A DNA stretch of 64,000 nucleotides from Desulfovibrio desulfuricans (GTDB taxonomy: Bacteria > Desulfobacterota > Desulfovibrionia > Desulfovibrionales > Desulfovibrionaceae), in NCBI RefSeq assembly GCF_004801255.1, contig NZ_CP036295.1, positions 3,062,001-3,126,000 on the forward strand. Reading direction: 5' to 3'. Made by a program: the position numbers and the translations under genes. Positions within the stretch are counted from its first letter, which is position 1, and each line of letters opens with the position of its first letter. Shown here in pieces: positions 41,912-58,394 of this stretch. The notes under the pieces were generated by a model. It did no database searches, was not told the origin of the DNA, and was given only the letters and a program-made list of their open reading frames with translations.

Positions 41912-41965
41912 GTGCAATAAATACTTGCGCCTCGCAGCCAAAAGGTATAACTGATTTCTCCTCAT

Positions 41966-42342
<377 letters not shown>

Positions 42343-42444
42343 ACCGTCGTCCAGCTTTTTTGAATAGGTGACACACACATTCCTGCTAAACGCTGACAGA
42401 CCTCGGCTGTGTACAACAACCTGAAATATTGATATATTTTACAG

Positions 42445-43524
42445 ATGAATACAAAATTGCGTGCAATATCTCTCTTTGCTGGCTGCGGCGGAATGGACTT
42501 TGGTGCTGAAAAAGCTGGTATTGATATTATATGGGCAAATGAAATTGAGCACGATGCAGCAGAAACTTTGAGACAAAATTTTAAAAATGCAGAAATTGCT
42601 GAAGGCGACATAAAAAAAATTAAGTCGTTTCCTGAAGTTGATATAGTGATTGGTGGGTATCCCTGTCAGTCCTTTTCAATGGGCGGCAATCGCAATCCAG
42701 AGAATGATAAGCGGACTTATCTTTATCTAGAATTTTTGCGATGCTTAAACAATACCTCACCTAAATTTTTTGTTGCTGAAAACGTTTCTGGACTAAAGAA
42801 AATTGACAATGGCTCTTTTTTGCATGAACAAATACGCGTATTCAACGATGCTGGAAAATTTGGATATGATGTTTATTTTAAAGTTGTTGATGCAAAAGAC
42901 TATGGCGTCCCTCAGTCGAGAAAAAGACTCTTTATTGTTGGGATAAGAAAAGATTTAAAATTGCAGTTTAGTTTTCCCGAACCAAGTCATGGAAAAGTAG
43001 GATCCGGGTTGTTAGCGTATGAATCGCATGGGCACGCAATCAAAGGTTTGCCTTCATGGCCTGAAGGCGAATTCTATGAGCGCCCACACGATCCAGAGGG
43101 GCATATGTCATGGTACTACATGTCACGCAACCGCAGAGCACCTTGGGTTGGCCCTTCATTTACGATAGTTGCGAACTGGCGGCATGTTACTTTGCACCCG
43201 GCTTCCCCTGTAATGAAGCTTACATGGTCAAATTTAAGTGATGGATGGAAACAACGGTGGGACTTTACCGATGAACACGATGCTGCGCTAGCGCAGCATC
43301 AAATTATACCTCTCGACACACCGCGTAGGCTTTCATGGAGAGAATGTGCCCGCATTCAAACTTTTCCCGCTAATTTTGAGCCATTTGGGAAGGTTGAATC
43401 CAAATTTACCCAGATTGGGAACGCTGTCCCTCCGCTACTCGCTGAAAAAATCCTAAAACACCTTGTAAGCGGTCGCGGGCTGCAAGAGCAAAAAGTTCCG
43501 CCTCAGCAACTTGCATTAATCTGA
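42445..43524 (+). CDS. DNA (cytosine-5-)-methyltransferase
   Basis: 359 aa with all core C5-methyltransferase motifs: I (SLFAGCGGMDFG, 9-20), IV (GGYPCQSFS with nucleophile Cys74), VI (AENV, 111-114), VIII (VPQSRKRLF, 155-163) and X (TQIGNAVPPLLA near the C-terminus). The target-recognition region lies between about 180 and 300. AT-rich, unlike the core. It converges with the next gene, overlapping by 9 bp at the 3' ends. Together they fit a type II restriction-modification pair; recognition sequence unknown. Confidence 0.93.
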   Translation: MNTKLRAISLFAGCGGMDFGAEKAGIDIIWANEIEHDAAETLRQNFKNAEIAEGDIKKIKSFPEVDIVIGGYPCQSFSMGGNRNPENDKRTYLYLEFLRCLNNTSPKFFVAENVSGLKKIDNGSFLHEQIRVFNDAGKFGYDVYFKVVDAKDYGVPQSRKRLFIVGIRKDLKLQFSFPEPSHGKVGSGLLAYESHGHAIKGLPSWPEGEFYERPHDPEGHMSWYYMSRNRRAPWVGPSFTIVANWRHVTLHPASPVMKLTWSNLSDGWKQRWDFTDEHDAALAQHQIIPLDTPRRLSWRECARIQTFPANFEPFGKVESKFTQIGNAVPPLLAEKILKHLVSGRGLQEQKVPPQQLALI

Positions 43525-44346
43525 CCCCCATTTGGCAGGCCAATATGTTTTTGCCCTATCAGAAGGGGTATAAACGGGAGGCTGCTCTAAATAAAAAATT
43601 GGTGATTTATAAATCGCCTCTGATGCCCTTGGGTAGTATTTTAGTTGTCCCCCAGAAAGGCCGTACCAATCAAAGACAACTTCTCTTGGATTACTGCTAT
43701 CATAACCGCGTAAACATTTTTCAGAAGAAAACTCCCATATTAACCCTGTTGGCAGACTTAAAGAAAAGGAATGTACTTGGTATGAACGTACACCATCTTT
43801 AATTTTACTACTAACTGTAATATACTTACTACTCGCGATATCTAATTTTTTTCCAGGATTGTTATTTTCGTATTTTTGTTTTGCCTCTGTGTGCCATTGT
43901 GTTACAGTTGCTATGATGCACTCACCAACACTTTTAGCTACACTCTGTCTTTTTTCACGAAAAACATTCTCGGTAAGTTGCAACTTTTGAACTATTGGTT
44001 CCCATAGTTTTGCAGGTGAATTGCACAGCTCCATATACACACGCCCCGCATTTTCCAAATCTTCAAGGGCACTAGCCCGTGACAATTCTTTAGATTTTAA
44101 GGAAATTCCATAAGTGTTATTTATATGTGCTGTTGAACTGACGACAACATCAAAAATTTCCTTATTCTCGTTTGCATAGCCAGCAAGAATATCTGCAAAG
44201 ATTCTCTCAAAATCACGCCAACCCGGCCTTGACGAATTATCACTTTCTCTCTCTTGACCGCTTCCATCGCGAAACACACTCATTGACAAACGTAAACGCT
44301 CAAGTTCTCGCGAGTTAGGCTTACGTGTCAAAAAAGGAATAGACAT
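43516..44346 (-). CDS. Probable type II restriction endonuclease partner
   Basis: 276 aa, start at 44346 with GGAGG 7-8 bases upstream. No motif I can name with confidence. The region GWRDFERIFADILAGYANENKEIFDVVV followed by SLKSKELS resembles the acidic-then-ESK/EXK active-site spacing of PD-(D/E)XK nucleases (Asp in FDVVV; Lys in SLKSKEL). It is convergent with and overlaps the methyltransferase gene, the usual setting of a cognate nuclease. Both genes sit between the 346-bp inverted repeats. Assignment rests mainly on context. Confidence 0.6.
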   Translation of the reverse strand: MSIPFLTRKPNSRELERLRLSMSVFRDGSGQERESDNSSRPGWRDFERIFADILAGYANENKEIFDVVVSSTAHINNTYGISLKSKELSRASALEDLENAGRVYMELCNSPAKLWEPIVQKLQLTENVFREKRQSVAKSVGECIIATVTQWHTEAKQKYENNNPGKKLDIASSKYITVSSKIKDGVRSYQVHSFSLSLPTGLIWEFSSEKCLRGYDSSNPREVVFDWYGLSGGQLKYYPRASEAIYKSPIFYLEQPPVYTPSDRAKTYWPAKWGSD

Positions 44347-44357
44347 TTAATTTCCTC

Positions 44358-44703
44358 CATTAGTTGTGGGAAGAGCGAAATATATTAACTCACCCTGGAG
44401 GATAAGGCAAGACGGCCTCTATAAATTTAATTAAATCGCTAATTTACAAGTATTTTTTATACCACACCGAATAAAAAATTCTTTTGCGCCATGAGAGTTT
44501 GACCTAGCGGTCGCATCAGAAATTTGTTGTTATCAGTCGGTTGCAGATATGAAAACAATGCGAACTTCTGAAAACGAACCCATTCCTCCATGCATTCCCC
44601 TAAAAACGAAAAAACCCCCGACCATCTTTCGATGATCGGGGGTTCCTATTTACCTATCTGGTGGAGCTGAAGAGAATTGAACTCTTGACCTCTTGAATGC
44701 CAT
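44358..44703 (-). repeat. 346-bp inverted repeat, right arm
   Basis: Inverted copy of 41997-42342. Its inner end is only 11 bp before the nuclease ATG, so promoter sequence for that gene lies inside the repeat. Its outer end is the tRNA-Ala 3' fragment (44650-44703), shared with the larger repeat to the right. Confidence 0.9.
44650..44703 (-). repeat. att-like copy B: tRNA-Ala 3' fragment
   Basis: 54 bp on the minus strand matching 41997 onward: anticodon loop, T arm, acceptor 3' strand, CCA and flank. It is preceded on its own strand by CCTTAGT, which comes from the recombinase side, so no complete tRNA forms. Confidence 0.9.
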
Positions 44704-44773
44704 ACTAAGGCATGATGCCCCAAACCTTACACCGTCAATGAAATCAGGCTATTAAATGTATATTTCCCGTCCG

Positions 44774-44803
44774 TTTTGATACATTTTGATACATTTTGTA
44801 TAT
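44774..44803 (-). repeat. 10-bp periodic repeats at recombinase 3' end
   Basis: TTTTGATACA occurs twice back to back, followed by TTTTGTATAT, giving three units with helical-turn spacing between the att copy and the recombinase stop codon. Equivalent tracts sit at 54043-54072, 56438-56470 and 58518-58552. Likely arm-type binding sites for the recombinase. Confidence 0.55.
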
Positions 44804-44808
44804 CCCAA

Positions 44809-45402
44809 TCAGATTTCATGTGTAAGGATTTCAAGCACCTCCTTGTCCTCAATGCCCAGGTACCTCATGGTGACACTAGGGGATGAATGGTTGAACCTTT
44901 TGCAGATCAGCTCAAAACCCACACCAAATTTTGTCCTCTGAATGTATCCGAAGGTTTTTCTAAGGGAATGTGCGCCGTAATTGCCTTCAAGGTTTATGGT
45001 TTTGCACCATTCCTTAATCATGCGGTTTACGGTCATAATCGTAAGAGGCTTCTGGTGGCCTCTTCGGGATTGGAATAGGTAATCATCATCATAATGGTTA
45101 GATGCCTCCAGATGCCCTCTGAGGGCCTTGTAGACCTCCCTGTTTATATAAAGGGTGTTGGTCTTTCCGGTCTTGGATTCTCTGATTTGTATGGCTTGTC
45201 CGGGTTTGGCATATTTGACGTGTGAAATTTTGAGTTTAAGCAAATCACCAGTTCGGATTCCGTTGTTGATGCCAAGCGTGAAAAGCAGCAAATCACGGGG
45301 CCGTGATGCAAGCAGCTTTTTAATGGATTGAATATGGGACAATTCTCTGATTGGTTGAACGAGTGTTGATGATCCGTTTTTGGGGTGATTGGGGTTATTC
45401 AT
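44809..45402 (-). CDS. Short tyrosine recombinase (FimB/FimE-sized), copy 1
   Basis: 197 aa, essentially a catalytic domain only. The complete active-site set is visible: Arg50 (NNGIRTG), Lys77 or Lys80 (ESKTGK), His145-x-x-Arg148 (AHSLRKT), His172 (FNHSSP) and nucleophile Tyr181 (TMRYLGI). The length and lack of an N-terminal core-binding domain resemble the FimB/FimE inverting recombinases rather than phage integrases. It ends about 105 bp from a tRNA-Ala fragment. The translation is identical to the copy at 53444, which lies in opposite orientation. It probably acts on the tRNA-Ala att copies; whether it inverts, excises or inserts is not shown. Confidence 0.88.
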   Translation of the reverse strand: MNNPNHPKNGSSTLVQPIRELSHIQSIKKLLASRPRDLLLFTLGINNGIRTGDLLKLKISHVKYAKPGQAIQIRESKTGKTNTLYINREVYKALRGHLEASNHYDDDYLFQSRRGHQKPLTIMTVNRMIKEWCKTINLEGNYGAHSLRKTFGYIQRTKFGVGFELICKRFNHSSPSVTMRYLGIEDKEVLEILTHEI

Positions 45403-45740
45403 GGCATTGCCTCAATGTTAAATTAATATGTAAAATCAGTATATTACTTAACATTGTATGTACACTGCCACTAAATGAAATGAATAATAGATTAAAATGA
45501 TTAGATAAAATGACAGAAGTTAAGTTTTATAAAGAACTTATCCTGAAATTTCCGATAGTTATGTGTAATTTTTCGATTCAGGGAACTTGAAAAAGTTAGC
45601 ATTGGGAATGAGAAAATATCCACGCATTTGAATCTACATGTTGAATAAGTGATTGAATGTTCAATCAAATAACTAGCATGATTTAAAAAAATGTAGATTG
45701 GAAAAAAATTGAATTTATTTTGCAAATTTTTTGATTTTAA

Positions 45741-46165
45741 GTGATTTTGGAAACTGGTTTTCGATAAATTATATTCAAGAAAACGGATATATATAAATTT
45801 GAATATGGACATATAAGAATAGAATGAAATTATTTTGTAGAAAATAGTGATAACTGAGAATTTGAAAAACTTGTTTTTCAAATTTGAAGTTAATCCCGAA
45901 GGGATTTAATGCAAATGAGAAATAGAATGGAAATATGAATTGAATGGATTAAATTCAGATTTTGATTTGATTAATTTGTTTGATTAGAAATCCCGGAGCG
46001 GGATTTAACTTCGAAGTTGAAAAACTTGTTTTTCAACTTCTCAGTTGCAATTTTTATTTTGAAAAGACATTTTAAATGATTTTATACTATTCCATTCTTC
46101 TTAAAGAAGAATTATATACGATTTCTTGTATATAATTTATTGGAAACTGGTTTCCGAAATCATAG
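45741..46165. repeat. Palindrome-rich AT region (left arm copy)
   Basis: Two block types occur on each side of a centre near 45950. Outer blocks (about 45741-45790 and 46109-46165) carry GGAAACTGGTTTTCG-like sequence plus a tataatttat tract. Inner blocks (about 45850-45910 and 45989-46046) contain near-perfect hairpins, e.g. GTTGAAAAAC-tt-GTTTTTCAAC, followed by AATCCCG..CGGGATT. The whole is an imperfect palindrome of about 425 bp. Candidate origin, transfer or recombination structure; no gene is supported. Confidence 0.65.
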
Positions 46166-46350
46166 TTTTGAATAAAAAAGTGATATTTTTTTAAATTTAT
46201 TTTTGTTTTTATTTAGAAGCAATATTAATAATGTGTATTTTATAGATTTAGTGCTGTTTAGAAGCTAAAAAAATTTGAATAGAGCATGAAAAGTAGCAAA
46301 AATGACGAAAAATTATTTTTAAATTTCAAGCAGATAACCACATTTCCACT

Positions 46351-46396
46351 AAAAAGGGGAGGCTTTATACCTCCCCAAAATTCTGAAAATCCCCAT
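46351..46396 (-). terminator. Terminator of the left XRE gene
   Basis: GGGGAGG (46355-46361) pairs with CCTCCCC around a CTTTATA loop. On the minus strand it ends in a T run. A diverged inverted copy lies at about 52363-52407 at the other end of the core, so the core carries its own end repeats. Confidence 0.65.
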
Positions 46397-46418
46397 TCCA
46401 GCCGCATGCGATAAGCAA

Positions 46419-46742
46419 TCATTTGATTTTGAGCTTTGCCTTGATCTGCGTTTCAAGCTCACGAAGAACGTCAACAGGAGCGGCTTGAAGCAGCTTTTTA
46501 ATCTTGTTGATTTGTTGACGGTGCTCACGGTCAGTCTTGGCAAAAATCTGGGCTGGCGTGAAGTTCAGCACCTGCCCAATCTTTTCATAAAAATTGATGG
46601 TTGCATCCGGCGAACCCTCTTCGATTTTTCGAAGTTCAGCAATGGGAATTTCTGCTTTCTCGGCAAGTTGCTCCTGAGTAAGCTTCTTTGCTTCCCGCAG
46701 ATTCACGATCTTTGCCCCAACGATTTTGAAAGACTCCATCAT
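46419..46742 (-). CDS. XRE-family transcriptional regulator
   Basis: 107 aa, start at 46742 with AGGAG 8 bases upstream. HTH at about residues 9-62: GAKIVNLREAKKLTQEQLAE then PIAELRKIEEG. The C-terminal part is a charged helix (REHRQQINKIKKLL). Probably the repressor of the divergent plus-strand operon starting at 46939, in the usual layout for a small integrative element. Confidence 0.85.
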   Translation of the reverse strand: MMESFKIVGAKIVNLREAKKLTQEQLAEKAEIPIAELRKIEEGSPDATINFYEKIGQVLNFTPAQIFAKTDREHRQQINKIKKLLQAAPVDVLRELETQIKAKLKIK

Positions 46743-46938
46743 AAGTCATGCTCCTGTATGATTTTTTTAAAAAATATACAGGGTTATCGGGAAGTACACA
46801 GTTATTTTACGGGAAAGGCGGTCACAATGACCGCCTTTTTTTGCGTGTTTATTTCGTGGAAGGTTAACAATTCAAAAAACCATCGTAAAATCGGCGTAGC
46901 TTTCAAAATTTGTATAACCTTTAACTCAGGAGTTGGAC

Positions 46939-47268
46939 ATGAAAAAGATTGATATTAACGATTTTTGTGATTGCATTGCAGCTAACATGCCTTATGAGGA
47001 CATTAAGGACATGTTTAATATCAAAACAAAGGAGCAATTTAAAAGATATTTGTATGATGCTTCTGCCAAAAAAGGCGAAATTATTAAATATGAATTTCCA
47101 AAAAATAGTAATTCACGCGATATTAGCTATTTAAAAGATGGCAGTATCAAAATTAATGCTAATTTTGTAAATCAGTCACTTAAAAAAATAATGGCAAGTA
47201 ATGATGATGTAAACTTTAATATTAGTTTTGAATGTGAATCAAAACGAATTGTCATTGAATTTTGCTAA
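46939..47268 (+). CDS. Small hypothetical protein of the integrative core
   Basis: 109 aa from ATG 46939, with AGGAG (46928-46932) 6 bases upstream. No recognised family. N-terminal segment DCIAANMPYEDIKDMFNIKTKEQFKRYL looks like a helical DNA-binding or regulator unit; the remainder alternates short strands. AT-rich. It is the first plus-strand gene after the XRE regulator and 48 bp before the helicase gene, so probably an early gene of the element. Confidence 0.6.
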   Translation: MKKIDINDFCDCIAANMPYEDIKDMFNIKTKEQFKRYLYDASAKKGEIIKYEFPKNSNSRDISYLKDGSIKINANFVNQSLKKIMASNDDVNFNISFECESKRIVIEFC

Positions 47269-47316
47269 AACAAAACTGAAATATTCAAAATATAAATTTA
47301 TAATAAGGAGTTTAAT

Positions 47317-48903
47317 ATGTGCTCAAAATCTTGGATTGATACATCTACATTGGATATGCGTAGTGAGGGAATAAAGCAAATCGTAAATGAAACAAATATA
47401 GCACTTGATGTGTTTAATGAAAATCATTTCGCTTGCGAAGAAGGAGGCAAATTTTTTATTTATACAGAAACAAAGGATGAAGATGGTAATTTTAAATTGA
47501 CTCGTCTTTCATATAAAGATTTTGCATTCAGATATAACTGTAATGATATATATGTTCCTTCAGGAAAAAATGGCAATCCCTTCATCAAAAAGGGAATCGG
47601 TTCTTACTGGATGAGTTGCCCACAAAAAAGAACATATAATGGGATTATATTTAATCCAAAGTCCACTAATAGTGATTTTTATAATTTATGGACAGGATTT
47701 AAGATTGATTCAAGCAGTGATGGTGCTTTTCCTCATATAGAGAAACATCTCAAAGAAGTTTGGTGCAATGGAGATGAGGAATACTATGCATACCTCATAA
47801 AGTGGTTTGCTCATTTGGTTCAATATCCATATGAAAAGCCAGGTGTTGCTCTTGTAATAAAAGGGGAAAAAGGCACAGGAAAAACAGGCTTTATCTCCAA
47901 GTTGGCGGATATGATTCTAAAGGAACATTACATGTTGGTGAGTTCTTCTCGTGATATCTATGGTCATTTTAATGCCCAGCAGTATGGAAAGCTATTAATC
48001 ACTTTTGATGAAGCGATTTGGAACGGTGACAAGGGGATGGAAGGAAGGCTGAAATCTTTGATCACTGATCTGAATATCCTTGTTGAAAAAAAGGGCATGG
48101 ATGCAGAAATCACAAAAAACTATGCTCGCTATATTTTGCTGACAAATGAGAAGTTTACAGTTCCTGCAACATATGATGAGAGGAGGTTTTGCGCGTTAAG
48201 AATAAGCAATAAATACAAGCAAGATACTGAATATTTTTCAGAATTATATGATGCAATGGATCAGGGAGAAATCGCTTCATTTTTTGGATTTCTATCACGC
48301 CACAAGTTTAACAAAAATGATGTTTTTACTCCACCAGCAACTAGAGCATTATTTGAAGATGTGCTTGAAAATATGGATTTTTTTGACAACTGGCTTTTTA
48401 ATTTAATTGACGATTACGCAATTAAATACAAAACTTCTGAGCTAATTTATGATATAGGATCTGTTGAAACTATTTCATTTGGAAGATTTGTCAGAACAAA
48501 AACATTATTTGAGAATTTTAGAGACGCAAAAGAGCGTTCTGGGCGATATTCATCAATTTTTACACAGACAAAATTTACTCAAAAATTGACAAACAAAAAA
48601 GATGGTTCTTATAATTTTCAATATGGAAAACATGAAGGGCATAATTGCATATTTTTGCCTACCATTGAGGATGCAAAAAGAATTTTTGAAAAAAAATATA
48701 CTTGCATTGTAGATTGGACAGAATTTAATGAAAAAGGCAATATTCCAGAATATGATACTTTTATAAAAATGCTAAAAGAAAATTTTAGAAGCAGAAGTTG
48801 CAAGAAAAATGCTATAAAAACAGCACATAGCATGTATAAAGATAAACAATTTACAGAAGAATTTGGGCATATGCTTGGCATAGACAATTCAAATGTTGCC
48901 TAG
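47317..48903 (+). CDS. Phage/plasmid-type P-loop helicase (DUF5906-like, SF3-type)
   Basis: 528 aa, AAGGAG 7 bases before the ATG. Walker A is GEKGTGKT (183-190), followed by a Walker B-like LLITFDEA (about 228-235) and a sensor LLTNEKF (about 275). The block LWTGFKIDSS upstream and LVEKKGMDA downstream are typical of the primase-helicase proteins of satellites and integrative elements. No primase active site is seen in this protein; a separate zinc-finger protein at 50495 may supply that part. Indicates autonomous replication of the excised element. Confidence 0.8.
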   Translation: MCSKSWIDTSTLDMRSEGIKQIVNETNIALDVFNENHFACEEGGKFFIYTETKDEDGNFKLTRLSYKDFAFRYNCNDIYVPSGKNGNPFIKKGIGSYWMSCPQKRTYNGIIFNPKSTNSDFYNLWTGFKIDSSSDGAFPHIEKHLKEVWCNGDEEYYAYLIKWFAHLVQYPYEKPGVALVIKGEKGTGKTGFISKLADMILKEHYMLVSSSRDIYGHFNAQQYGKLLITFDEAIWNGDKGMEGRLKSLITDLNILVEKKGMDAEITKNYARYILLTNEKFTVPATYDERRFCALRISNKYKQDTEYFSELYDAMDQGEIASFFGFLSRHKFNKNDVFTPPATRALFEDVLENMDFFDNWLFNLIDDYAIKYKTSELIYDIGSVETISFGRFVRTKTLFENFRDAKERSGRYSSIFTQTKFTQKLTNKKDGSYNFQYGKHEGHNCIFLPTIEDAKRIFEKKYTCIVDWTEFNEKGNIPEYDTFIKMLKENFRSRSCKKNAIKTAHSMYKDKQFTEEFGHMLGIDNSNVA

Positions 48904-48926
48904 CAAAAGAAAATACTCATTTTTAT

Positions 48927-49949
48927 TTAAAATAGATGGGGTTTAACACTCAAGGCACGCTCCTTTTCTCCTTGGAGTTCATGGTAATATGTATCCGCCG
49001 TCATTCTGGTGGAGCTATGTCCTAGGAGTTTGGAAACGGCCTTGAGGTCTCCTCCATTTGCAAGCATGGTCGAGGCAAAAAGGTGCCGAATGTCATAGAG
49101 CCTTACGGGATAGTCAATCTCGGCTTTTTCGAGGGCGCTTTTAAATGACTTTCGGCATTGCTTTATGCCTCGACCATTTTTTTCAATCACATAGGGTGAT
49201 TGAGCTGTTTTGCGTTTTGAAAGCAGCCTTTCTCGGAAATTGGGTGTCATGGGAATCGTTCTGTCTGACCCTGCCGTTTTGGTTCCCCGTATGTGAATTG
49301 TGCCCTGGTTGAAGTCTATGTCCTGCCAAAGCAATGAAAATAGCTCTGAGTTGCCGGGCCGCATTCCAAGCTCCCACTCAACCTCAATGATCCACCTGAG
49401 ATGGTCAGGTGCAGCAGCATAAATTTTTGCGAGGTCTTTGATCGTTAGGCGCATGTCACGCCGTAATTCACGCTTCTTTTGCCAATTCGACATGGGGTCA
49501 TTGGTGGTCAACTCATGTCGAATACCAAACCGGAATATGGCATGTAGGCTGTCCATATACCGGTTTTGGGTAGCTGGGGATTTATTTGTGAACCGTGCTG
49601 CAACAGCCAGAATGTCCTTGAAGGATATTTGGTCAACAGGAAGATGGCAAAGGCAGGGCAGAAAATGCTCGTTTAGCAAAAACTTGAGTGTGCCAATCCA
49701 AGAAGTTGTCTTGTCTTTGACTTTGAGAAAATCAAGGTAGCATTGTCCTAAATCATCAAGGTATATTTGTCGAGAATTTGAAAGGGCCGCAACCGTGTAT
49801 ATATGCCCTGATTTGATTTCCATTTCTCTGTTCAAGGCCAATTCTTGCGCTTCTGACTCGTTTCCGAAATAATCCTTCTTAGGGCTGACAAGCCCTGGCA
49901 CCCGGTACTGGACATACCAGTTGCCAGACTTGGTTTGGCTGACGGCCAT
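48927..49949 (-). CDS. Tyrosine-type integrase of the core element
   Basis: 340 aa, full domain set: N-terminal arm-binding stretch (KSGNWYVQYRVPGL), core-binding domain (about 60-160) and catalytic domain with Arg197 (GMRPGN), Lys224, Arg288, His311 (LLGHSS) and Tyr321 (TYYHEL). The first His of the HxxR box is Tyr285 (YDIRH), a substitution seen in active family members. It is unlike the 197-aa recombinases in size and sequence, so the core has its own integration machinery. Its start overlaps the AlpA-like gene stop. Confidence 0.92.
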   Translation of the reverse strand: MAVSQTKSGNWYVQYRVPGLVSPKKDYFGNESEAQELALNREMEIKSGHIYTVAALSNSRQIYLDDLGQCYLDFLKVKDKTTSWIGTLKFLLNEHFLPCLCHLPVDQISFKDILAVAARFTNKSPATQNRYMDSLHAIFRFGIRHELTTNDPMSNWQKKRELRRDMRLTIKDLAKIYAAAPDHLRWIIEVEWELGMRPGNSELFSLLWQDIDFNQGTIHIRGTKTAGSDRTIPMTPNFRERLLSKRKTAQSPYVIEKNGRGIKQCRKSFKSALEKAEIDYPVRLYDIRHLFASTMLANGGDLKAVSKLLGHSSTRMTADTYYHELQGEKERALSVKPHLF

Positions 49950-50161
49950 TAAACAACCCTCCTAAATCCAGAACGAATTTCTGCATCTATGTTTGCAAAA
50001 ACTTCTGGATTTTTCATCCATGCCTCAAGGTCAAGAACTCTGATTCTGTTTTTATTTGGTCCATATTTGGGTATTTTATACTGTTCCATGATTCTACCGA
50101 AATAAGCAGCATTATAACTACAATATGCTGCTGCCTGTTTAATGGTTAAATATTCGCACAT
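49949..50161 (-). CDS. AlpA/excisionase-like HTH protein
   Basis: 70 aa: EYLTIKQAAAYCSYNAAYFGRIM then KIPKYGPNKNRIRVLDLEAWM, a MerR-type winged helix as in excisionase and AlpA proteins. It directly precedes the integrase gene and overlaps it by one base, the classic xis-int pair. Likely directs excision. Confidence 0.8.
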   Translation of the reverse strand: MCEYLTIKQAAAYCSYNAAYFGRIMEQYKIPKYGPNKNRIRVLDLEAWMKNPEVFANIDAEIRSGFRRVV

Positions 50162-50178
50162 TTTTTTGCCTCATTTAT

Positions 50179-50232
50179 ATAAATATGTATAAATATGTAC
50201 ACAAACATCTTGAATATGTACATAAATATTTA
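50179..50232. repeat. AAATATGTA repeats between xis-like gene and the TGA-interrupted ORF
   Basis: AAATATGTA occurs at 50181 and 50191 (10-bp period), with further variants near 50212 and 50222. Candidate operator or iteron cluster controlling the divergent genes. Confidence 0.5.
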
Positions 50233-50253
50233 TAAAAATGGAGATTTAAAAAT

Positions 50254-50472
50254 ATGGAAAATGAATTAATGAACAAATACTTGATTGATGAAGATTCAAA
50301 TAAGAATTTTATGGATTGAATTATACGAAAAGCAACATTTGAAAAAGACCCAAAGAAACAGTTTATAATGACTTCATGCTTCGATTTTTTGAATGCTGTA
50401 AAAGCTTCATCTAATGAAAAGTGAATTCGTCAAGCACAAAGTGTTGTAGGACAATTTGTTAAAAACTTGTAA
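50254..50472 (+). pseudogene. 72-codon ORF interrupted by two in-frame TGA codons
   Basis: ATG 50254 with GGAG at 50240-50243. The frame runs to TAA 50470-50472 but meets TGA at 50317-50319 (codon 22) and 50422-50424 (codon 57). Reading TGA as Trp gives a smooth protein: NKNFMDWIIRKATFEKD in the first half and SSNEKWIRQAQSVVGQF in the second. Both contexts look like natural Trp positions (TGG to TGA change). Other genes of the core use TGG for Trp. Either two nonsense mutations or recoding; standard annotation would miss it. It lies 22 bp before the zinc-finger gene. Confidence 0.55.
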
Positions 50473-50494
50473 CTTCAATATAGGCGAGGATTAG

Positions 50495-51088
50495 ATGGAT
50501 GTGACTGTGAATTTTGAAGATGTGCTCATACAAGCAAATTGTGATATTTCGGCAAAAAGAGGCAATATAAAATGCCCTTTTTGTAACACATGGTCATTTA
50601 AAATTTATCCAGAGCAATTAGCCAAATGCCATAATGCTTCTTGTGGTTGGCATGGGGATGCAATCAAGTTTTATACAGAGTTTAAAAATATTGATAAAAA
50701 TGAGGCTATTAAAGAACTCGCTGTTAAGTTAGATTTAAAAAAGTCTATTGTTGGGAAAAAAGAGCAGACACTTAAGGAAGCAAAAATTGCACTAGCTAAG
50801 GATTTAGAATTTTTGTCATGGTGCAGACTATATTTTGCATTTTATAAAAACGATGTGGTTGAGCAAAAAATATATGCTGAAAAATGTGGGCTATCAAAAT
50901 CGGCTTTTAGTAGAATATTAAATGGGAATATGGGGAATGCACTTACATGGAGAAAGACGCTTAATGTTTTGAGACAAGAGATTAATATTGAGAGATTAAA
51001 GAAGGATATTAAAAAAGGTGCCAAATATTTTTTAGAGGACATTCCTTTAGAATATGTGACAAAATATAGGATTAAAAAAAGAACTTAG
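50495..51088 (+). CDS. Primase-type CHC2 zinc-finger protein
   Basis: 197 aa. The zinc site is KCPFC (Cys27, Cys30) with CHNASCGWHGDAIKF (Cys45 or His46, Cys50, His53), the CHC2 pattern of DnaG-type primases. No TOPRIM active site follows; instead there is a helical region with an HTH-like stretch KCGLSKSAFSRILNG (about 129-143). It may serve as the template-binding part of a split primase with the helicase at 47317. Starts after an AGGCGAGGA site. Confidence 0.75.
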   Translation: MDVTVNFEDVLIQANCDISAKRGNIKCPFCNTWSFKIYPEQLAKCHNASCGWHGDAIKFYTEFKNIDKNEAIKELAVKLDLKKSIVGKKEQTLKEAKIALAKDLEFLSWCRLYFAFYKNDVVEQKIYAEKCGLSKSAFSRILNGNMGNALTWRKTLNVLRQEINIERLKKDIKKGAKYFLEDIPLEYVTKYRIKKRT

Positions 51089-51151
51089 AAATCTCGTCCC
51101 TTAAGCTAGCTTTGACATGACGAGTTTCCTTTGACCATTAAAATGTGCAGG

Positions 51152-51192
51152 CAAAAAAATGGGGATAGCATGAAAGCTATCCCCATTTTTTC
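51152..51192. terminator. Bidirectional terminator
   Basis: ATGGGGATAGC (51159-51169) and GCTATCCCCAT (51176-51186) with a six-base loop. An A run on the left and a T run on the right let it serve both the zinc-finger gene and the convergent outer-membrane gene. Confidence 0.85.
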
Positions 51193-51208
51193 AATTTATA
51201 ACAGCTAA

Positions 51209-51874
51209 TTAGAATGTAAGGCGAAGTCCAAGACTGACTTCATTCATTGCCGGATTGGTGGTTATGCTGTCGTCATTGTACGAAGTTTTGTTTTTGCCAA
51301 GACCAACGTATCTGTAGGCAAGATCCGCAGAAACATTGTCCGTGAACGCATATGAGCAGCCCGCGCCAACATTCCATGCGAAGACGGTATTCATAGACGA
51401 TGCCGACATGCTTTCGCCGTTTCGTCCATGAATGTCATAATTGCTGTTGATAAAGCCCATGCCGAGACCACCGCCAATATAGGGGGTGAACTTGCTGCTA
51501 TTATGAAAATCCCAGTAGGCATTTGCAAAAAGGGTATTCACATTCCATGTGGCATCAATTGAACCAGTACGAGTGTTCTTCGTGCCGGACCATTCTGTGC
51601 GTGCGCTGCTCCTCATGTCGTACTCGACTTCGACACGAAATGGGGCATTGAACTTGGGGTAAAAGTCGTAACCCGCAAAAACGCCACCGCCTACGGTATT
51701 CTGGCCATAGGTATCAATGCCGAAGTAGTCGAAGTTTTTGGAATGTGAGGTGGCTCCTGTCGATTGGATCGAGTCAAGGAATTTAAGCCCCCCATAAACG
51801 CCGTTAACCTCTGCCATTGCTGGGGCGCTGAGGGCAAAAATCAGAGCAATAGCAAATACCATTCGCTTAAACAT
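51209..51874 (-). CDS. Outer-membrane beta-barrel protein (OmpA/opacity-like)
   Basis: 221 aa, start 51874 with GGAGG upstream. Signal peptide MFKRMVFAIALIFALSAPAMA, cleavage before EVNGVYGG. Eight-stranded barrel pattern with YIGGGLGMGF, NVGAGCSYAF and the terminal Phe in SLGLRLTF. Cargo of the integrative core; it may alter surface properties such as phage adsorption (lysogenic-conversion style), which is inference. Divergent from an XRE regulator that may control it. Confidence 0.85.
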   Translation of the reverse strand: MFKRMVFAIALIFALSAPAMAEVNGVYGGLKFLDSIQSTGATSHSKNFDYFGIDTYGQNTVGGGVFAGYDFYPKFNAPFRVEVEYDMRSSARTEWSGTKNTRTGSIDATWNVNTLFANAYWDFHNSSKFTPYIGGGLGMGFINSNYDIHGRNGESMSASSMNTVFAWNVGAGCSYAFTDNVSADLAYRYVGLGKNKTSYNDDSITTNPAMNEVSLGLRLTF

Positions 51875-51897
51875 AGAATCCTCCCATTTGTAAGCCA

Positions 51898-51936
51898 GTT
51901 ATAGGTATTATTGGCTTTATAAAAATAACCTATAAA
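51898..51936. promoter_or_regulatory. Putative operator between barrel gene and XRE gene
   Basis: TTATAGGTATT and AATAACCTATAA form an interrupted inverted repeat (about 51900-51910 and 51925-51936) at the start of the barrel gene leader. Plausible binding site for the adjacent XRE protein. Confidence 0.5.
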
Positions 51937-52017
51937 CGGCATTCTAGCCCAAGTAAACACTTTTAGTGGGTTTATAGCCATAAAATGTCACTTATAATTG
52001 GCTTTAAGGGGCAAATT

Positions 52018-52335
52018 ATGACTTTTGCTATTCGATTGGGCCAGAGGCTTAAGCAGGTGAGGCGTCTAGGTGGAATGTCACAAGACCAAGCTGCTGAGCT
52101 TGCGGGTATCAGCGGGAAATATCTCGGAGAGATTGAGCGCGGCGAAGCAAATGCCACGGTAATCGTTTTGGCAAAGCTTGCTGACGCCTTGCAAATAGAA
52201 CTGCCGGAGTTGTTAAGCTTTGGTCATGTAGACACACGTGAAAATTTAATCAAAAAAATCAGCTTGTTAATTGAAGGCGTTTCAGATGAAGAACTGGCAA
52301 AAATCTATCGGGCTATTGTTGCTATAATCAAGTGA
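52018..52335 (+). CDS. XRE-family transcriptional regulator
   Basis: 105 aa from ATG 52018 with AAGGGG 8 bases upstream; ATG 51985 is in frame but lacks a site. HTH: GQRLKQVRRLGGMSQDQAAELAG then SGKYLGEIERGEANAT, typical of the Cro/C1 fold. The C-terminal helix DEELAKIYRAIVAIIK may dimerise. Divergent from the outer-membrane protein gene. Confidence 0.87.
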   Translation: MTFAIRLGQRLKQVRRLGGMSQDQAAELAGISGKYLGEIERGEANATVIVLAKLADALQIELPELLSFGHVDTRENLIKKISLLIEGVSDEELAKIYRAIVAIIK

Positions 52336-52680
52336 TTGTTTGTCAGTTTAGTGTGTTTAGTGGATTTCAGGGGAATTTAGGGGAGGTATGAAGCCTCTCT
52401 TTTTATTTGGCTGGGCACTTTTGGTAGTTTGGGCACTTTTTTGGTGAATTGGAGCGAAGGAGAGATGCTTTAATAAAATTATATATTACGTTAAAACTGG
52501 AAATGTGGTTATCTGCTTGAAATTTAAAAATAATTTTTCGTCATTTTTGCTACTTTTCATGCTCTATTCAAATTTTTTTAGCTTCTAAACAGCACTAAAT
52601 CTATAAAATACACATTATTAATATTGCTTCTAAATAAAAACAAAAATAAATTTAAAAAAATATCACTTTTTTATTCAAAA

Positions 52681-53105
52681 CTATGATTTCGGAAACCAGT
52701 TTCCAATAAATTATATACAAGAAATCGTATATAATTCTTCTTTAAGAAGAATGGAATAGTATAAAATCATTTAAAATGTCTTTTCAAAATAAAAATTGCA
52801 ACTGAGAAGTTGAAAAACAAGTTTTTCAACTTCGAAGTTAAATCCCGCTCCGGGATTTCTAATCAAACAAATTAATCAAATCAAAATCTGAATTTAATCC
52901 ATTCAATTCATATTTCCATTCTATTTCTCATTTGCATTAAATCCCTTCGGGATTAACTTCAAATTTGAAAAACAAGTTTTTCAAATTCTCAGTTATCACT
53001 ATTTTCTACAAAATAATTTCATTCTATTCTTATATGTCCATATTCAAATTTATATATATCCGTTTTCTTGAATATAATTTATCGAAAACCAGTTTCCAAA
53101 ATCAC
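52681..53105. repeat. Palindrome-rich AT region (right arm copy)
   Basis: Mirror image of 45741-46165, with the same hairpin blocks. Confidence 0.65.
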
Positions 53106-53443
53106 TTAAAATCAAAAAATTTGCAAAATAAATTCAATTTTTTTCCAATCTACATTTTTTTAAATCATGCTAGTTATTTGATTGAACATTCAATCACTTA
53201 TTCAACATGTAGATTCAAATGCGTGGATATTTTCTCATTCCCAATGCTAACTTTTTCAAGTTCCCTGAATCGAAAAATTACACATAACTATCGGAAATTT
53301 CAGGATAAGTTCTTTATAAAACTTAACTTCTGTCATTTTATCTAATCATTTTAATCTATTATTCATTTCATTTAGTGGCAGTGTACATACAATGTTAAGT
53401 AATATACTGATTTTACATATTAATTTAACATTGAGGCAATGCC

Positions 53444-54037
53444 ATGAATAACCCCAATCACCCCAAAAACGGATCATCAACACTCGTTCAACCAATCAGA
53501 GAATTGTCCCATATTCAATCCATTAAAAAGCTGCTTGCATCACGGCCCCGTGATTTGCTGCTTTTCACGCTTGGCATCAACAACGGAATCCGAACTGGTG
53601 ATTTGCTTAAACTCAAAATTTCACACGTCAAATATGCCAAACCCGGACAAGCCATACAAATCAGAGAATCCAAGACCGGAAAGACCAACACCCTTTATAT
53701 AAACAGGGAGGTCTACAAGGCCCTCAGAGGGCATCTGGAGGCATCTAACCATTATGATGATGATTACCTATTCCAATCCCGAAGAGGCCACCAGAAGCCT
53801 CTTACGATTATGACCGTAAACCGCATGATTAAGGAATGGTGCAAAACCATAAACCTTGAAGGCAATTACGGCGCACATTCCCTTAGAAAAACCTTCGGAT
53901 ACATTCAGAGGACAAAATTTGGTGTGGGTTTTGAGCTGATCTGCAAAAGGTTCAACCATTCATCCCCTAGTGTCACCATGAGGTACCTGGGCATTGAGGA
54001 CAAGGAGGTGCTTGAAATCCTTACACATGAAATCTGA
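53444..54037 (+). CDS. Short tyrosine recombinase (FimB/FimE-sized), copy 2
   Basis: 197 aa, translation identical to the copy at 44809 but in opposite orientation, with the same Arg50, His145, Arg148, His172 and Tyr181 catalytic set. It sits in the right arm of the 1.7 kb inverted repeat and ends 105 bp before tRNA-Ala fragment C. Having two inverted copies beside two inverted att sites would allow inversion of the 9.4 kb between them. Confidence 0.88.
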   Translation: MNNPNHPKNGSSTLVQPIRELSHIQSIKKLLASRPRDLLLFTLGINNGIRTGDLLKLKISHVKYAKPGQAIQIRESKTGKTNTLYINREVYKALRGHLEASNHYDDDYLFQSRRGHQKPLTIMTVNRMIKEWCKTINLEGNYGAHSLRKTFGYIQRTKFGVGFELICKRFNHSSPSVTMRYLGIEDKEVLEILTHEI

Positions 54038-54142
54038 TTGGGATATACAAAATGTATCAAAATGTATCAAAACGGACGGGAAATATACATTTAATAGCCT
54101 GATTTCATTGACGGTGTAAGGTTTGGGGCATCATGCCTTAGT

Positions 54143-54196
54143 ATGGCATTCAAGAGGTCAAGAGTTCAATTCTCTTCAGCTCCACCAGATAGGTAA
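54143..54196 (+). repeat. att-like copy C: tRNA-Ala 3' fragment
   Basis: Direct-orientation copy of the block that starts at 41997, preceded by CCTTAGT instead of the tRNA 5' half. Confidence 0.9.
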
Positions 54197-54199
54197 TTA

Positions 54200-54236
54200 A
54201 AACCCCCGATCATTGAAAAATGGTCGGGGGTTTTTT
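54200..54236 (+). terminator. Terminator after att copy C
   Basis: AACCCCCGATCATT and AATGGTCGGGGGTT with a small loop and T run, a slightly diverged form of the tRNA-Ala terminator. Confidence 0.85.
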
Positions 54237-54282
54237 GCGTTTAACTTCTCACTAGCTTTGATTGACTTATTCTATGCACGAG

Positions 54283-55134
54283 CTACCCTTCAATGGCTTT
54301 GATATATTGCTTTTTCCCTAATATAGAAAGATTTAAAGACTTCAAAGCATCTTTTGCCATAGTCGTCTTATCTTGTCTTTGTAAATTATATTCTGCCGCG
54401 CGCAAGTTTTTCTTGTACTGGCGAGGAACAATTGGTTTTACACTATCTGTATTTAACCCGGTTACAATTCCTGCAGAATGTCCAGTATTGAATGTTTCTT
54501 TTTTCATATTCAAGAAAAATGCATTGCGTGTAACAATTTGTCTGAGATTTGCCCTCGTTTTCTCAGAAATAAAACTGCCTGATATAGTTATATCATCTAT
54601 ATATCGAGAATATCTTAAACCTTTTGGGTAAACATACTCATAAATATTTTTATCAAGTGGAATGCAAAGAATATTAACAAGTGCTGCACTTGTAGGAAAA
54701 CCTTGGGCCAATTCATAGTTGAATGTGGTCAAATTGGTGAGTGTTTGGGCGACAATAGGGCTACATCCAAGTATCTCTTCGTATAGTCGTCTGATTCGTG
54801 ATGAAGGTACATTGGGGAAGCAAGATTTTAAGTCCATGCAGAATTTATATTGTCGCCCGCAGTGGACAGCCGCATTTGTTTTAGCGGAATGCTTTGGAAC
54901 AGCCCCATGCGCGTAAGGACTGATAGGAATCCTATACAATAAATTATGCAATATCTTGTGTTGGATGGCTTTTAATTCGCTTTTTGCATTTGCTATAAGC
55001 CTTCTCTTTCCAGGTTTAGTTTCCTTTTCACGCAAAGAACAATACTTATCCATATTTGAAGCAACACGAATAAGTATTTCTTGTTTTACCTTTATTCTAA
55101 GGCAAAGGTGCGTGATTGTCTTAATATTGAGCAT
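54283..55134 (-). CDS. Retron reverse transcriptase
   Basis: 283 aa from ATG 55132-55134, just after an AAGGA site and the stop of the HTH gene; ATG 55170 is also in frame. Retron-specific signatures are KTNAAVH (the NAxxH motif, about 87-91) and SAGIVTGLNTD (VTG motif, about 224-226). The RT core has CMDLKSCF (Asp about 101), AQGFPTSAALVN and the YIDD box (178-181). It would reverse-transcribe the RNA encoded upstream at 55731-55995. Retrons are anti-phage systems in which msDNA and RT restrain an effector; the partner here is likely the HTH protein, the small hydrophobic ORF, or both. Confidence 0.9.
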   Translation of the reverse strand: MLNIKTITHLCLRIKVKQEILIRVASNMDKYCSLREKETKPGKRRLIANAKSELKAIQHKILHNLLYRIPISPYAHGAVPKHSAKTNAAVHCGRQYKFCMDLKSCFPNVPSSRIRRLYEEILGCSPIVAQTLTNLTTFNYELAQGFPTSAALVNILCIPLDKNIYEYVYPKGLRYSRYIDDITISGSFISEKTRANLRQIVTRNAFFLNMKKETFNTGHSAGIVTGLNTDSVKPIVPRQYKKNLRAAEYNLQRQDKTTMAKDALKSLNLSILGKKQYIKAIEG

Positions 55135-55138
55135 ATCC

Positions 55139-55429
55139 TTAAGTATCAAGTAGAATAATCTGCATAGCATTTTTTTTCATATTCAAAAATATTTTCTTAT
55201 CATCATCTTGCAGCTCTAAAGGGGTATCACACCCAGCAATAAGTAATATCTCATTTGAAATTCCAAGCTTATCTGCAAAATCTCTAAGTTTTGTGATACT
55301 TACATCTCTTTTATTATTTTCAACTTGGGATAAAAAATTTTGCGTGACGCCCAGCATTTTTGCCATGTCACCTTGAGAAATGCCCCTATGGACTCTAATC
55401 AGCTTTAAAACGGCCCCAACTGAACTCAT
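55139..55429 (-). CDS. HTH (XRE) protein of the retron operon
   Basis: 96 aa. HTH at about 4-58: LKLIRVHRGISQGDMAKMLG then QNFLSQVENNKRDVSITKLRD. Its 3' end abuts the RT start (4-bp gap), so translation is coupled. From memory, one retron class (type VI in a published scheme) combines an RT with a Cro/C1-type HTH protein; this gene would fit. It may bind msDNA or act as repressor of the unit. Confidence 0.85.
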   Translation of the reverse strand: MSSVGAVLKLIRVHRGISQGDMAKMLGVTQNFLSQVENNKRDVSITKLRDFADKLGISNEILLIAGCDTPLELQDDDKKIFLNMKKNAMQIILLDT

Positions 55430-55503
55430 ATGTATACCCCATCAGGGATTGTTTGCTTGGCACTTTGGTCTATATCCATTCTACTGATTGCGGTGTATGT
55501 CAT

Positions 55504-55674
55504 TCATTTTTTCAATCTTTGCCATAAATATAGCAAGTAAGATTTAATGACAGGCCATATCAACGCAAACAAAGGAAAGGAAACGTGGGATTCAGAGATT
55601 GTAATTTTACGCAGCCTCAGCCTAAGAGCACTTTTTGCGATGCTCAACCTTAAGTCTACTTCTTTTTTGTGCAT
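55504..55674 (-). CDS. Small hydrophobic protein upstream of the retron HTH-RT genes
   Basis: 56 aa from ATG 55672-55674, preceded by a good AGGAG site (55681-55685). N-terminal 30 residues are basic and helical (MHKKEVDLRLSIAKSALRLR). The C-terminal part SFPLFALIWPVIKSYLLYLW could span a membrane. No family recognised. Its position between the retron RNA and the HTH-RT genes, and its membrane-active look, suggest a toxin or effector. The ribosome-binding-site segment acgtgcaggag is nearly complementary to the 3' arm of the hairpin at 55712-55747, suggesting RNA- or msDNA-level control. Confidence 0.5.
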   Translation of the reverse strand: MHKKEVDLRLSIAKSALRLRLRKITISESHVSFPLFALIWPVIKSYLLYLWQRLKK

Positions 55675-55711
55675 GCTATTCTCCTGCACGTTTTATGGTT
55701 TTCACAACAAA

Positions 55712-55747
55712 ACGTGCAAGGAGTACATGACGTAACTCCTTGCACGT
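55712..55747 (-). other. Perfect hairpin between retron RNA and the small ORF
   Basis: ACGTGCAAGGAGT (55712-55724) and ACTCCTTGCACGT (55735-55747) are perfect complements around a 10-base loop. On the minus strand the stem is followed by TTTTGTTGTG, so it may terminate the retron RNA. One arm is also the a2 strand of the retron RNA. Confidence 0.7.
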
Positions 55748-55995
55748 GATTAGCCGAAGGGTTCTTTCCCACTTCGACCGTTGTGCCAGTATTATCTAGC
55801 CAAAAAACGAAATTGCAGTATCAGACAGAGCAGCACATAGTGTATTCCGCCGAGTATGCCGACCACAGCCGGGTTCCGAGCTGGGGGCATAGCGCCTTCG
55901 TGTACCCCTAAAGAAAGGGGGAGCCGTACAAAGTCGGCTCATAGTCCTCTTACGAGGAATAAGTTGGCTAACCACGCTAATTACAAGGAGTAATC
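55731..55995 (-). ncRNA. Retron msr-msd RNA
   Basis: About 265 nt on the minus strand, upstream of the HTH and RT genes. The 5' end has a1 (GATTACTCCTTG...) followed by ATTAGCGTGG; TTAGC is the usual setting of the branch guanosine (G at 55977), as in retron Eco1. The 3' end has a2 (GCTAATCACG..CAAGGAGT), complementary to a1 over ACTCCTTG and ATTAGC. Between them are stable stems, for example CCCCCTTTCTTTAGGGG and the CCGACC/GGTCGG-type arms near 55850-55870. Exact ends are inferred from a1 and a2. Confidence 0.72.
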
Positions 55996-56252
55996 AAATC
56001 TCTGATTGTCAAAGAACACTGCGGCGAATCACCGCCTTCCTCTTTTCTATATATGGGCAAGGTTTTGCTGTCAATCTTTTTTGCTTTAAAAGCAAATTTT
56101 TTTGACTGAAGCTTAAATCCAAAATCACTACCAAATCATACACAAAATGTTAGTTCAGATTCGATGCTGTAGAGATAAGATGATGGACATCCGCCGTCGC
56201 CTATTGGATCACGCATCACATAAGTATCTCTGGTGCGCAGATGTGAGCCGAG
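55996..56252. other. Leader upstream of the retron RNA
   Basis: AT-rich, presumably holding the retron promoter. No ORF supported. Confidence 0.4.
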
Positions 56253-56316
56253 CAAAGCTAGTGAGAAGTTAAACGCAAAAAACCCCCGACCATTTTTCAA
56301 TGATCGGGGGTTTTAA

Positions 56317-56370
56317 TTACCTATCTGGTGGAGCTGAAGAGAATTGAACTCTTGACCTCTTGAATGCCAT
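56317..56370 (-). repeat. att-like copy D: tRNA-Ala 3' fragment
   Basis: Minus-strand copy of the tRNA-Ala 3' block with the CCTTAGT junction. A diverged terminator lies alongside at about 56280-56316. Confidence 0.88.
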
Positions 56371-56475
56371 ACTAAGGCATCATGCCCCAAGCCTTACACC
56401 GCCAATAAAATCAGGCTATTAAATGTATATTTTTCGTCCGTTTTGATACATTTCGATACATTTTGTATATCCCAA

Positions 56476-56758
56476 TCAGATTTCATGCGTAAGGATTTCA
56501 AGCACTTCTTTGTCCTCAATGCCCAGGTATCGCATGGTGACACTAGGGGATGAATGGTTGAACCTTTTGCAGATCAGCTCAAAACCCACACCCAATTTTG
56601 TCCTCTGAATATAGCCGAAGGTTTTTCTAAGGGAATGTGCGCCATAATTGCCTTCAAGGTTTATGGTTTTGCACCACTCCTTAATCATGCGGTTAACGGT
56701 CATAATCGCAAGAGGCTTCTGGTGGCCTCTTCGGGATTGAAATAGGTAATCATCATCA
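56476..56758 (-). pseudogene. Truncated short tyrosine recombinase, copy 3
   Basis: C-terminal half only, from DDDYLFQSRRGHQK to the natural stop, keeping His-x-x-Arg, His and Tyr but missing the N-terminal half with Arg50 and the Lys. Upstream sequence is unrelated. Two substitutions separate it from the intact copies over this span (K to L near FGYIQRTK and T to A near KPLTIMT). Broken by whatever joined the effector segment at 56759. Confidence 0.9.
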
Positions 56759-56788
56759 GGGGACGCCATGCCTCGCCCTTGTGAAGGC

Positions 56789-58236: not shown

Positions 58237-58355
58237 AGAAATGAACATCCTGCAGACCTTAATCGGTCAGCGCTGTCCGAGGAAATCTAGCCAACTCCCC
58301 CTTGCAGGGCAATGAAAATATCTATTTTAGCATGACGCAAAACACGTAATACGCC

Positions 58356-58392: not shown

Positions 58393-58394
58393 GA

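Follow-up and report, generated by a model that had tools for sequence, protein, structure and literature searches.

By what means defence systems turn over faster than the genome around them is an open question, and the locus described here offers a concrete, testable arrangement: how could one defence system replace another while the genes on both sides stay in place? The arrangement consists of fixed tRNA anchors, defence modules of cassette size and a small recombinase. It was found in a 64,000-nucleotide (nt) stretch of Desulfovibrio desulfuricans DNA (contig NZ_CP036295.1, positions 3,062,001 to 3,126,000), hereafter called the window, to which all positions refer. The window contains a block, M1, in which two inverted arms, each with a recombinase gene, flank a core. 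The genome is a single contig of 3,251,440 bases, and the island around M1 is chromosomal with conserved genes at its flanks. On balance, we lean towards reading this island as an array of invertible modules anchored by tRNA genes, with defence cassettes that would be exchanged by cointegrate formation and resolution.

Anatomy of the island and its cassettes

The outer end of each M1 arm is the 3' half of tRNA-Ala(GGC) (positions 32–76, 45/45 identical), referred to as attachment (att) site in the following. Within the window and the 14 kb that follow it, eight att copies (at least 75% identity) occur in the order + - + - - - + -, six of them matching the tRNA-Ala 3' half at 45/45 positions, while 20 single-base shuffles of the searched sequence yielded zero copies. 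The first and the last copy lie in intact, convergent tRNA-Ala genes, the last one outside the window (Table 1). Inward-facing att pairs enclose three cassettes (C1, C2 and C3) and outward-facing pairs enclose two blocks (M1 and M2), giving the order tRNA> [C1] <att2-int1-M1 core-int2-att3> [C2] <att4-int3 ... <att5-int4 ... <att6-M2-int5-att7> [C3] <tRNA. Two of the seven neighbouring att pairs are direct rather than inverted. Since att identity starts at the anticodon loop, the sequence suggests that crossover takes place there.

The initial annotation had put the M1 arms at 1699 bp. They do form a perfect inverted repeat, which at 1710 nt is 11 nt longer than proposed, and an arm-to-arm comparison gives identity at 1645/1645 nt. 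A distance of 6149 nt separates them, in agreement with the core of 6.15 kb given there, and both carry, as claimed, the same tyrosine recombinase of 197 amino acids (aa), termed int197. The suggestion that the arms may be functional termini is likewise supported, as they are recombinase-att ends and a second block of the island is bounded in the same way: the outer sides of att2, att3, att4, att5 and att7 all carry int197 or a remnant of it. Duplication of a recombinase-att unit in inverted form, which had also been put forward, fits the sequence, whereas a single landed element proves too narrow a description, the arms bounding one of several mostly alternating inverted modules.

The complete identity of the M1 arms could also point to an assembly artefact or a very recent inverted duplication of one arm. 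This is hardly probable, given that the genome is a single 3.25-Mb contig and that the inverted recombinase arms of M2, 95.5% identical over 381 nt, differ by 4.5%, a difference which a duplicated contig would not give. In two relatives (G054 and G061), the halves of the locus lie on separate contigs, and in G061 both contigs stop 236–269 nt beyond the two tRNA genes, as an inverted repeat would cause. M2 appears to be older than M1.

The cassettes measured sit within inverted repeats that run past the tRNA end. C2 lies in a 513-nt pair with 96% identity, and a further pair, outside the window, measures 187 nt (100%); the C1 pair is listed in Table 1. Including relatives, 16 cassettes were catalogued, and in 12 of them the inverted repeats extend 41–327 nt beyond the tRNA end with 95.6–100% identity. 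When C1 to C12 were compared all versus all, the tRNA-Ala cassettes (C1 to C11) had only approximately 35–65 nt past the tRNA end, including the terminator, in common, followed by divergence; C12, which comes from a tRNA-Pro locus, matches the opposite side of that locus over 527 nt. The inner boundary of the repeat lies at most 37 nt from the end of a cargo open reading frame (ORF), or overlaps it, on at least one side in 12/12 cassettes, with ORFs chosen by hand and no chance expectation available; the smallest gap per cassette ranges from -128 to +37 nt. This tabulation omits C9 (nested in a tRNA-Pro locus), C11 (repeat equal to att alone), C12 and C15 (the right-hand cassette of G064 with a repeat barely beyond att), as well as small doubtful ORFs of C2, C6, C10 and C17, and the start of HamA in C6 was set by hand from its PADLOC match. 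As ideas, such repeat ends might reflect copying between arms that halts where coding sequence starts, or else one element may have inserted at both tRNA genes and then lost an internal part by deletion.

The cargo is mostly related to phage defence. Besides the C1 and C2 genes given in Table 1, C3, on the side of the array outside the window, holds a Lamassu system (PADLOC LmuA/B/C). At least one protein with a PADLOC match at E<=1e-10 was found in 9 of the 12 cassettes measured. PADLOC assigned PDC-M40B to C5, HamA and HamB to C6, PDC-S58 to C7 (Pfam ApeA_NTD1), a capP-like protein to C10, and a methylase together with PDC-S19 to C17; in C8, a capP-like peptidase has a putAbiC protein (Pfam) as its neighbour. 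The scanned proteins of C4 (Pfam DUF4747), C14 and C16 gave no PADLOC match, and neither did those of C9 and C15 (in C15 a 585-aa protein alone); the scan left out the genes of C11 and C12. Of 10 control proteins, taken from M1 and M2, one reached E<=1e-10, a helix-turn-helix (HTH) regulator, and a second HTH protein scored 4e-10. G+C content is 32–41% in C1 to C8 and C10, and 55–68% in the majority of 1-kb windows from 5 to 42 kb. As regards the C2 reverse transcriptase (RT), the NCBIfam retron St85 match remained below cut-off, and none of the retron RNA families of Rfam matched in 41900–61000.

The locus in related genomes

The search for tRNA genes covered 79 genomes of the same genus (61 + 18), this genome being designated G000. 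The flanks are a dioxygenase-like ORF (DODA) on the left and an aminotransferase-like ORF (AT) on the right, both named by eye. AT matched at E<=1e-120 in 58 of 61 genomes, and in many of these, though uncounted, the tRNA-Ala gene follows on the same strand. Among the matches listed, the complete arrangement DODA-tRNA> ... <tRNA-AT is present on one contig in 6/79 genomes (G000, G017, G051, G062, G064 and G070), with flanks kept in all six at 78–97% nucleotide identity in the eight pairs compared. One cassette alone lies between the tRNA genes of G062 (1.4 kb) and G070 (3.2 kb; a single-contig genome), two cassettes with a block between them are found in G017, G051 and G064, and G000 carries three cassettes along with two outward blocks and a pair of small direct-repeat units. 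Eight of the 15 genome pairs were compared for cargo, and no cargo of at least 120 nt is shared at the tRNA-Ala locus, with one exception: a lipoprotein-like block of the right-hand cassette of G064 matches the att5-att6 unit of G000.

Blocks are also found in inverted orientation. Genes of M2 are common to the blocks of G051 and G064, and M2 is collinear yet inverted in G051 compared with G064 and G000; the strand of AT and DODA does not differ among the three. The M2 marker gene (76–78% identity) occurs in 3/79 genomes including G000, each time at this locus; six other genomes have only matches of 37–42%, elsewhere. The G017 block consists of three other ORFs with 56% G+C.

Convergent intact tRNA-Pro(GGG) genes occur in 8/16 genomes searched (G017, G051, G058, G061, G062, G064, G070 and G071). 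At this locus, an outer-membrane-protein segment is inverted in G064 compared with G062 and G051. G070 and G017 also share, at 96–97% identity, a 16-kb block of housekeeping-like genes that lies in opposite orientation in the two genomes. The G058 genome has a cassette with tRNA-Ala ends located between two tRNA-Pro genes, and tRNA-Ala and tRNA-Pro genes have anticodon stem arms in common. As a separate observation, the tRNA-Pro pairs (L098, L099, L095-L097, L100, L069) are 1.3–18 kb apart, and some enclose an outer-membrane protein or what by eye resembles a Dam methylase.

Could the array simply consist of ordinary stacked tRNA islands, that is, independent insertions at two convergent tRNA-Ala genes with secondary att inversion and without any exchange function? 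Direct repeats of the tRNA 3' end are present for att4-att5 and att5-att6, which are ordinary direct-repeat units with int197 remnants as the sole recombinase recognised; an apparent standard element of G021 has a tRNA fragment on one side and the intact, like-oriented gene on the other; and the G051 tRNA-Pro element has direct repeats, too. Such repeats are not present for C1, C2, C3, M1 and M2. Moreover, stacking does not account for the single inward-repeat cassettes of G062 and G070, which stand alone between intact tRNA genes without a recognised recombinase, nor for matching cassette ends that run past att by cassette-specific sequence. We consider this explanation improbable.

Proposed exchange of cassettes

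In the array reading that we favour, int197 would recombine att sites with crossover at the anticodon loop. Because inverted att pairs can only flip the content between them, a cassette would not be lost in one recombination, and inward pairs would thus invert it without excision and hold it stably. Pairs of the same orientation (att1/att3, att2/att4) would instead release a circle made up of one cassette and one block, and a recombinase arm at each M1 end would make both att sites of this circle equivalent. The circle might then enter at the att of either anchor tRNA, forming the cointegrate tRNA>[A]<M>[B]<tRNA, the order observed. Resolution at the other same-orientation pair would let M leave with A or B, so that tRNA>[B]<tRNA or tRNA>[A]<tRNA remains; the tRNA>[cassette]<tRNA form matches the state of G062 and G070. 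One defence system would by this route replace another between unchanged tRNA genes, following the logic of recombinase-mediated cassette exchange. The anatomy, the states with one, two or three cassettes and the inversion of blocks are direct observations; we infer int197 to be the enzyme, circles to be formed and exchange, rather than homologous replacement, to cause the turnover. More tentatively, the locus may represent a natural recombinase-mediated cassette exchange for anti-phage defence, with the two fixed convergent tRNA genes as chromosomal docking bay: inverted att sites would keep one cassette locked, and another would be brought in by a carrier block bearing a recombinase at either end, which would form a cointegrate and leave with the old one.

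Several observations weigh against the exchange model. The G017 block has an int197 remnant at one end only, no int197 was recognised in the G051 block, and the ends of the G064 block are approximately 80% alike over 205 nt including att, a match that shrinks to 23 nt under stricter scoring. Five genomes (G058, G061, G062, G064 and G070) are without int197 match at 1e-20, G064 keeping a 42-residue remnant; in these, int197 would have been lost or would act in trans if the model holds. The DODA-tRNA halves of G054 and G013 lack an inverted copy within the stretches examined (10 kb and 4.9 kb, respectively), and the G058 cassette is closed by a tRNA fragment only, followed by chromosomal-looking genes. 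At tRNA-Pro, a 212-nt repeat lies near the breakpoint of the 16-kb inversion, and this repeat is not an att site or a recombinase arm: nothing in it was recognised as a tRNA fragment, and comparison with recombinase arms gave no meaningful match. The att of the G051 tRNA-Pro element is adjoined by an integrase related (33% identical) to int340, the full-length integrase of the M1 core, and not by the int197 relative, so the actual att integrase could be of the int340 type. Exchange also leaves the 41–327 nt of repeat extension up to the cargo genes unexplained. Homologous recombination between the conserved flanks could swap cassettes, and RecA could be responsible for the inversions.

These last points lead to a rival explanation, a defence hotspot turned over by homologous recombination, with the flanks as homology, repeats flipped by RecA and recombinase genes as leftovers of tRNA islands. 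The conserved DODA-tRNA and tRNA-AT flanks of all six anchored loci, the cassettes in genomes without an int197 match, and the tRNA-Pro inversion near a non-att repeat all speak for it, and an RT-like pair beside tRNA-Met without inverted tRNA copy implies that defence-like insertion needs no such system. It leaves unexplained, however, the inward tRNA halves bounding the cassettes, the recombinase arms at both ends of M1 and M2, and the stop of identity some 35–65 nt past the tRNA end. We rate it as rather unlikely.

The closest counterpart is found on plasmids. The dif modules of Acinetobacter plasmids have inversely oriented sites of alternating C/D types and invert and shuffle; single modules cannot excise, and they are proposed to move by forming a cointegrate that is then resolved at another pair of sites, with antibiotic resistance and toxin-antitoxin genes named as cargo (PMC13141974). 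The island resembles them in its modules between inverted, mostly alternating sites. In contrast to dif modules, its sites are tRNA-Ala 3' halves instead of XerC/XerD sites (no dif-consensus scan was run), its array encodes a small recombinase, its home is a chromosome with two tRNA anchors rather than a Rep_3-type plasmid, its cargo is mostly phage defence, and its inverted repeats extend as far as 327 nt beyond the tRNA end. If the exchange model holds, chromosomes too would have the site logic of plasmid dif modules, at different sites and with a different enzyme.

Other systems share single features. Like tRNA-targeted integrative elements, the island carries the gene of a tyrosine recombinase next to an att derived from the 3' end of a tRNA and keeps the tRNA gene intact, and the att4-att5 and att5-att6 units fit that pattern; unlike in those elements, most adjacent att sites are inverted and no recombinase is recognised in the cassettes. 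Integrons move short cassettes by means of a tyrosine recombinase, with attC sites in direct orientation, whereas the cassettes of the island sit between inverted sites and int197 scores under the integron-integrase cut-off. Invertases of the FimB/FimE type are recombinases of about 200 aa with little besides the catalytic domain, acting on inverted sites. Their size is similar to that of int197, which matches family NF007370 weakly and far below its cut-off, while the island sites are tRNA-derived and its modules are kilobases long with gene cargo. Among the literature matches listed (titles and abstract openings, with subscription papers and preprints outside the search), no description of convergent tRNA genes docking inverted-repeat defence cassettes was seen. 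Inward-facing tRNA 3' halves may serve as a simple rule for finding new defence systems, C4, C14 and C16 being candidates.

The recombinase, the M1 core and further features

The R, K, HxxR, H and Y columns, which we take to be the catalytic residues, are unchanged across 15 aligned int197 relatives. Within the genus, int197 matches at E<=1e-20 are found in 6/79 genomes; a relative adjoins att in G021, and in G019 one (87%) lies beside a tRNA-Pro 3' half. The best NCBIfam matches fall far under cut-off (24 bits versus a cut-off of 265 for the integron integrase family, 25.3 versus 221 for the tyrosine-type DNA invertase family NF007370), and the nearest solved structures are XerA and XerC-like. 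Relatives below 60% identity occur in plasmids and phages, including Streptococcus satellite phages. Relatives outside the genus were considered as further examples of the tRNA association and set aside: among nine such loci scanned with Rfam, a tRNA match lies beside the gene in one (L013, tRNA-Sec) and at a contig start in another (L008), and two tmRNA matches are both sub-threshold. A second copy of their tRNA was looked for in L008 and L013 and not found. By sequence, a link between int197 and tRNA genes outside this genus is not shown.

Upstream of int197, a 420-bp imperfect palindrome (45742–46162), mirrored in the right arm, contains two near-perfect palindromic sites, with central bases CTTG/CTTG here and CTTG/CAAG in G021. 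These paired palindromes were rejected as the true recombination site: they recur in G021, and none was recorded upstream of 13 other int197 relatives, of which L013 and L014, with just 491 and 605 nt upstream covered, are too short to judge. The junctions of recombinase flank and tRNA half at 44659–44721, 54125–54187 and 56326–56388 score as tmRNA/tRNA-like below cut-off, and the 'tRNA-Thr' reported by ARAGORN at att4 is such a junction; the element side of these junctions seems to mimic a tRNA 5' end.

In the M1 core, the integrase noted initially was recovered as int340, while the xis-like gene corresponds to a 70-aa ORF that resembles AlpA/Xis by eye, without a family scan. A replicating core, as proposed, is plausible from the sequence because helicase-like and primase-like genes are present. 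No exact direct repeat of at least 10 nt exists between the 250-nt stretches at both core ends, which speaks against independent insertion of the core. A check for a composite transposon recognised the arm gene as a PF00589 tyrosine recombinase and not a transposase. The beta-barrel protein of the core shares 57–59% identity with proteins between convergent tRNA-Pro genes in four relatives.

Table 1 Features of the island (positions within the window unless stated otherwise)
Feature	Position	Strand	Remarks
Intact tRNA-Ala(GGC), left anchor	41966-42041	+	att1 = 41997-42041
C1 left inverted repeat	41997-42342	+	tRNA 3' half, terminator and cassette-specific sequence
C5 cytosine DNA methyltransferase, C1 cargo	42445-43524	+	Pfam PF00145; PADLOC DruM2/MTase_II
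Type II restriction enzyme, C1 cargo	43516-44346	-	PADLOC REase_II 2e-40; no Pfam match
C1 right inverted repeat	44358-44703	-	346 nt, 100%
M1 left arm	44639-46348	-	att2, recombinase gene and upstream region; 100% complementary to right arm
att2	44659-44703	-	inside C1 right inverted repeat
int197 copy 1	44809-45402	-	197 aa; Pfam PF00589 at residues 34-185
Palindromic site pair	45851-46046	.	155 nt apart; upstream of int197; inside 420-bp imperfect palindrome
HTH regulator, M1 core	46419-46742	-	
DUF5906 protein, M1 core	47317-48903	+	helicase-like by AAA-type match
int340, M1 core	48927-49949	-	full-length 340-aa tyrosine integrase
70-aa ORF, M1 core	49949-50161	-	AlpA/Xis-like by eye only
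CHC2 zinc-ribbon protein, M1 core	50495-51088	+	primase-like
Outer-membrane beta-barrel protein, M1 core	51209-51874	-	
HTH regulator, M1 core	51985-52335	+	
M1 right arm	52498-54207	+	1710 nt, 100% complementary to left arm
int197 copy 2	53444-54037	+	
att3	54143-54187	+	tRNA-Ala positions 32-76
Reverse transcriptase, C2 cargo	54283-55170	-	best PADLOC model RT_VI, 2.6e-62
HTH protein beside RT, C2 cargo	55139-55429	-	
att4	56326-56370	-	closes cassette C2
int3, truncated recombinase arm	56371-56758	-	388 nt at 94.85% to M1 arm
att5	58404-58448	-	42/45; with att4 bounds 2.08-kb direct-repeat unit
int4, decayed recombinase arm	58449-58780	-	
att6	60467-60511	-	38/45; with att5 bounds second, 2.06-kb direct-repeat unit
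Block M2	60512-64000, continuing outside window	.	ORFs DUF1254-type, LDT, SMR by eye
M2 beyond window	att7 at 66135	+ (att7)	HD-GYP-like ORF (by eye), int5, att7
Intact tRNA-Ala, right anchor	70362-70437	-	outside window; last att starts at 70362

Elsewhere, an apparent standard element of G021 (L055:17254-18498, L094) with a 414-aa integrase-like ORF (by eye) uses the same tRNA-Ala gene; since it occupies this gene, other integrases may use the tRNA-Ala site, too. Another tRNA gene of the window, tRNA-Met, is followed at 1454–4817 by two tandem RT-like ORFs (431 and 638 aa) in low-G+C DNA, which by eye resemble a pair of the DRT3 type. No inverted copy of this tRNA was seen apart from one weak 27-nt inverted match elsewhere, making this a defence-like insertion without cassette architecture. 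Finally, at L059:4519-5866, a RexA homologue (PADLOC 9.2e-54) adjoins a small ORF in which hydrophobic stretches are visible by eye, within an element that has an int197 relative and lies between two tRNA-Pro genes.

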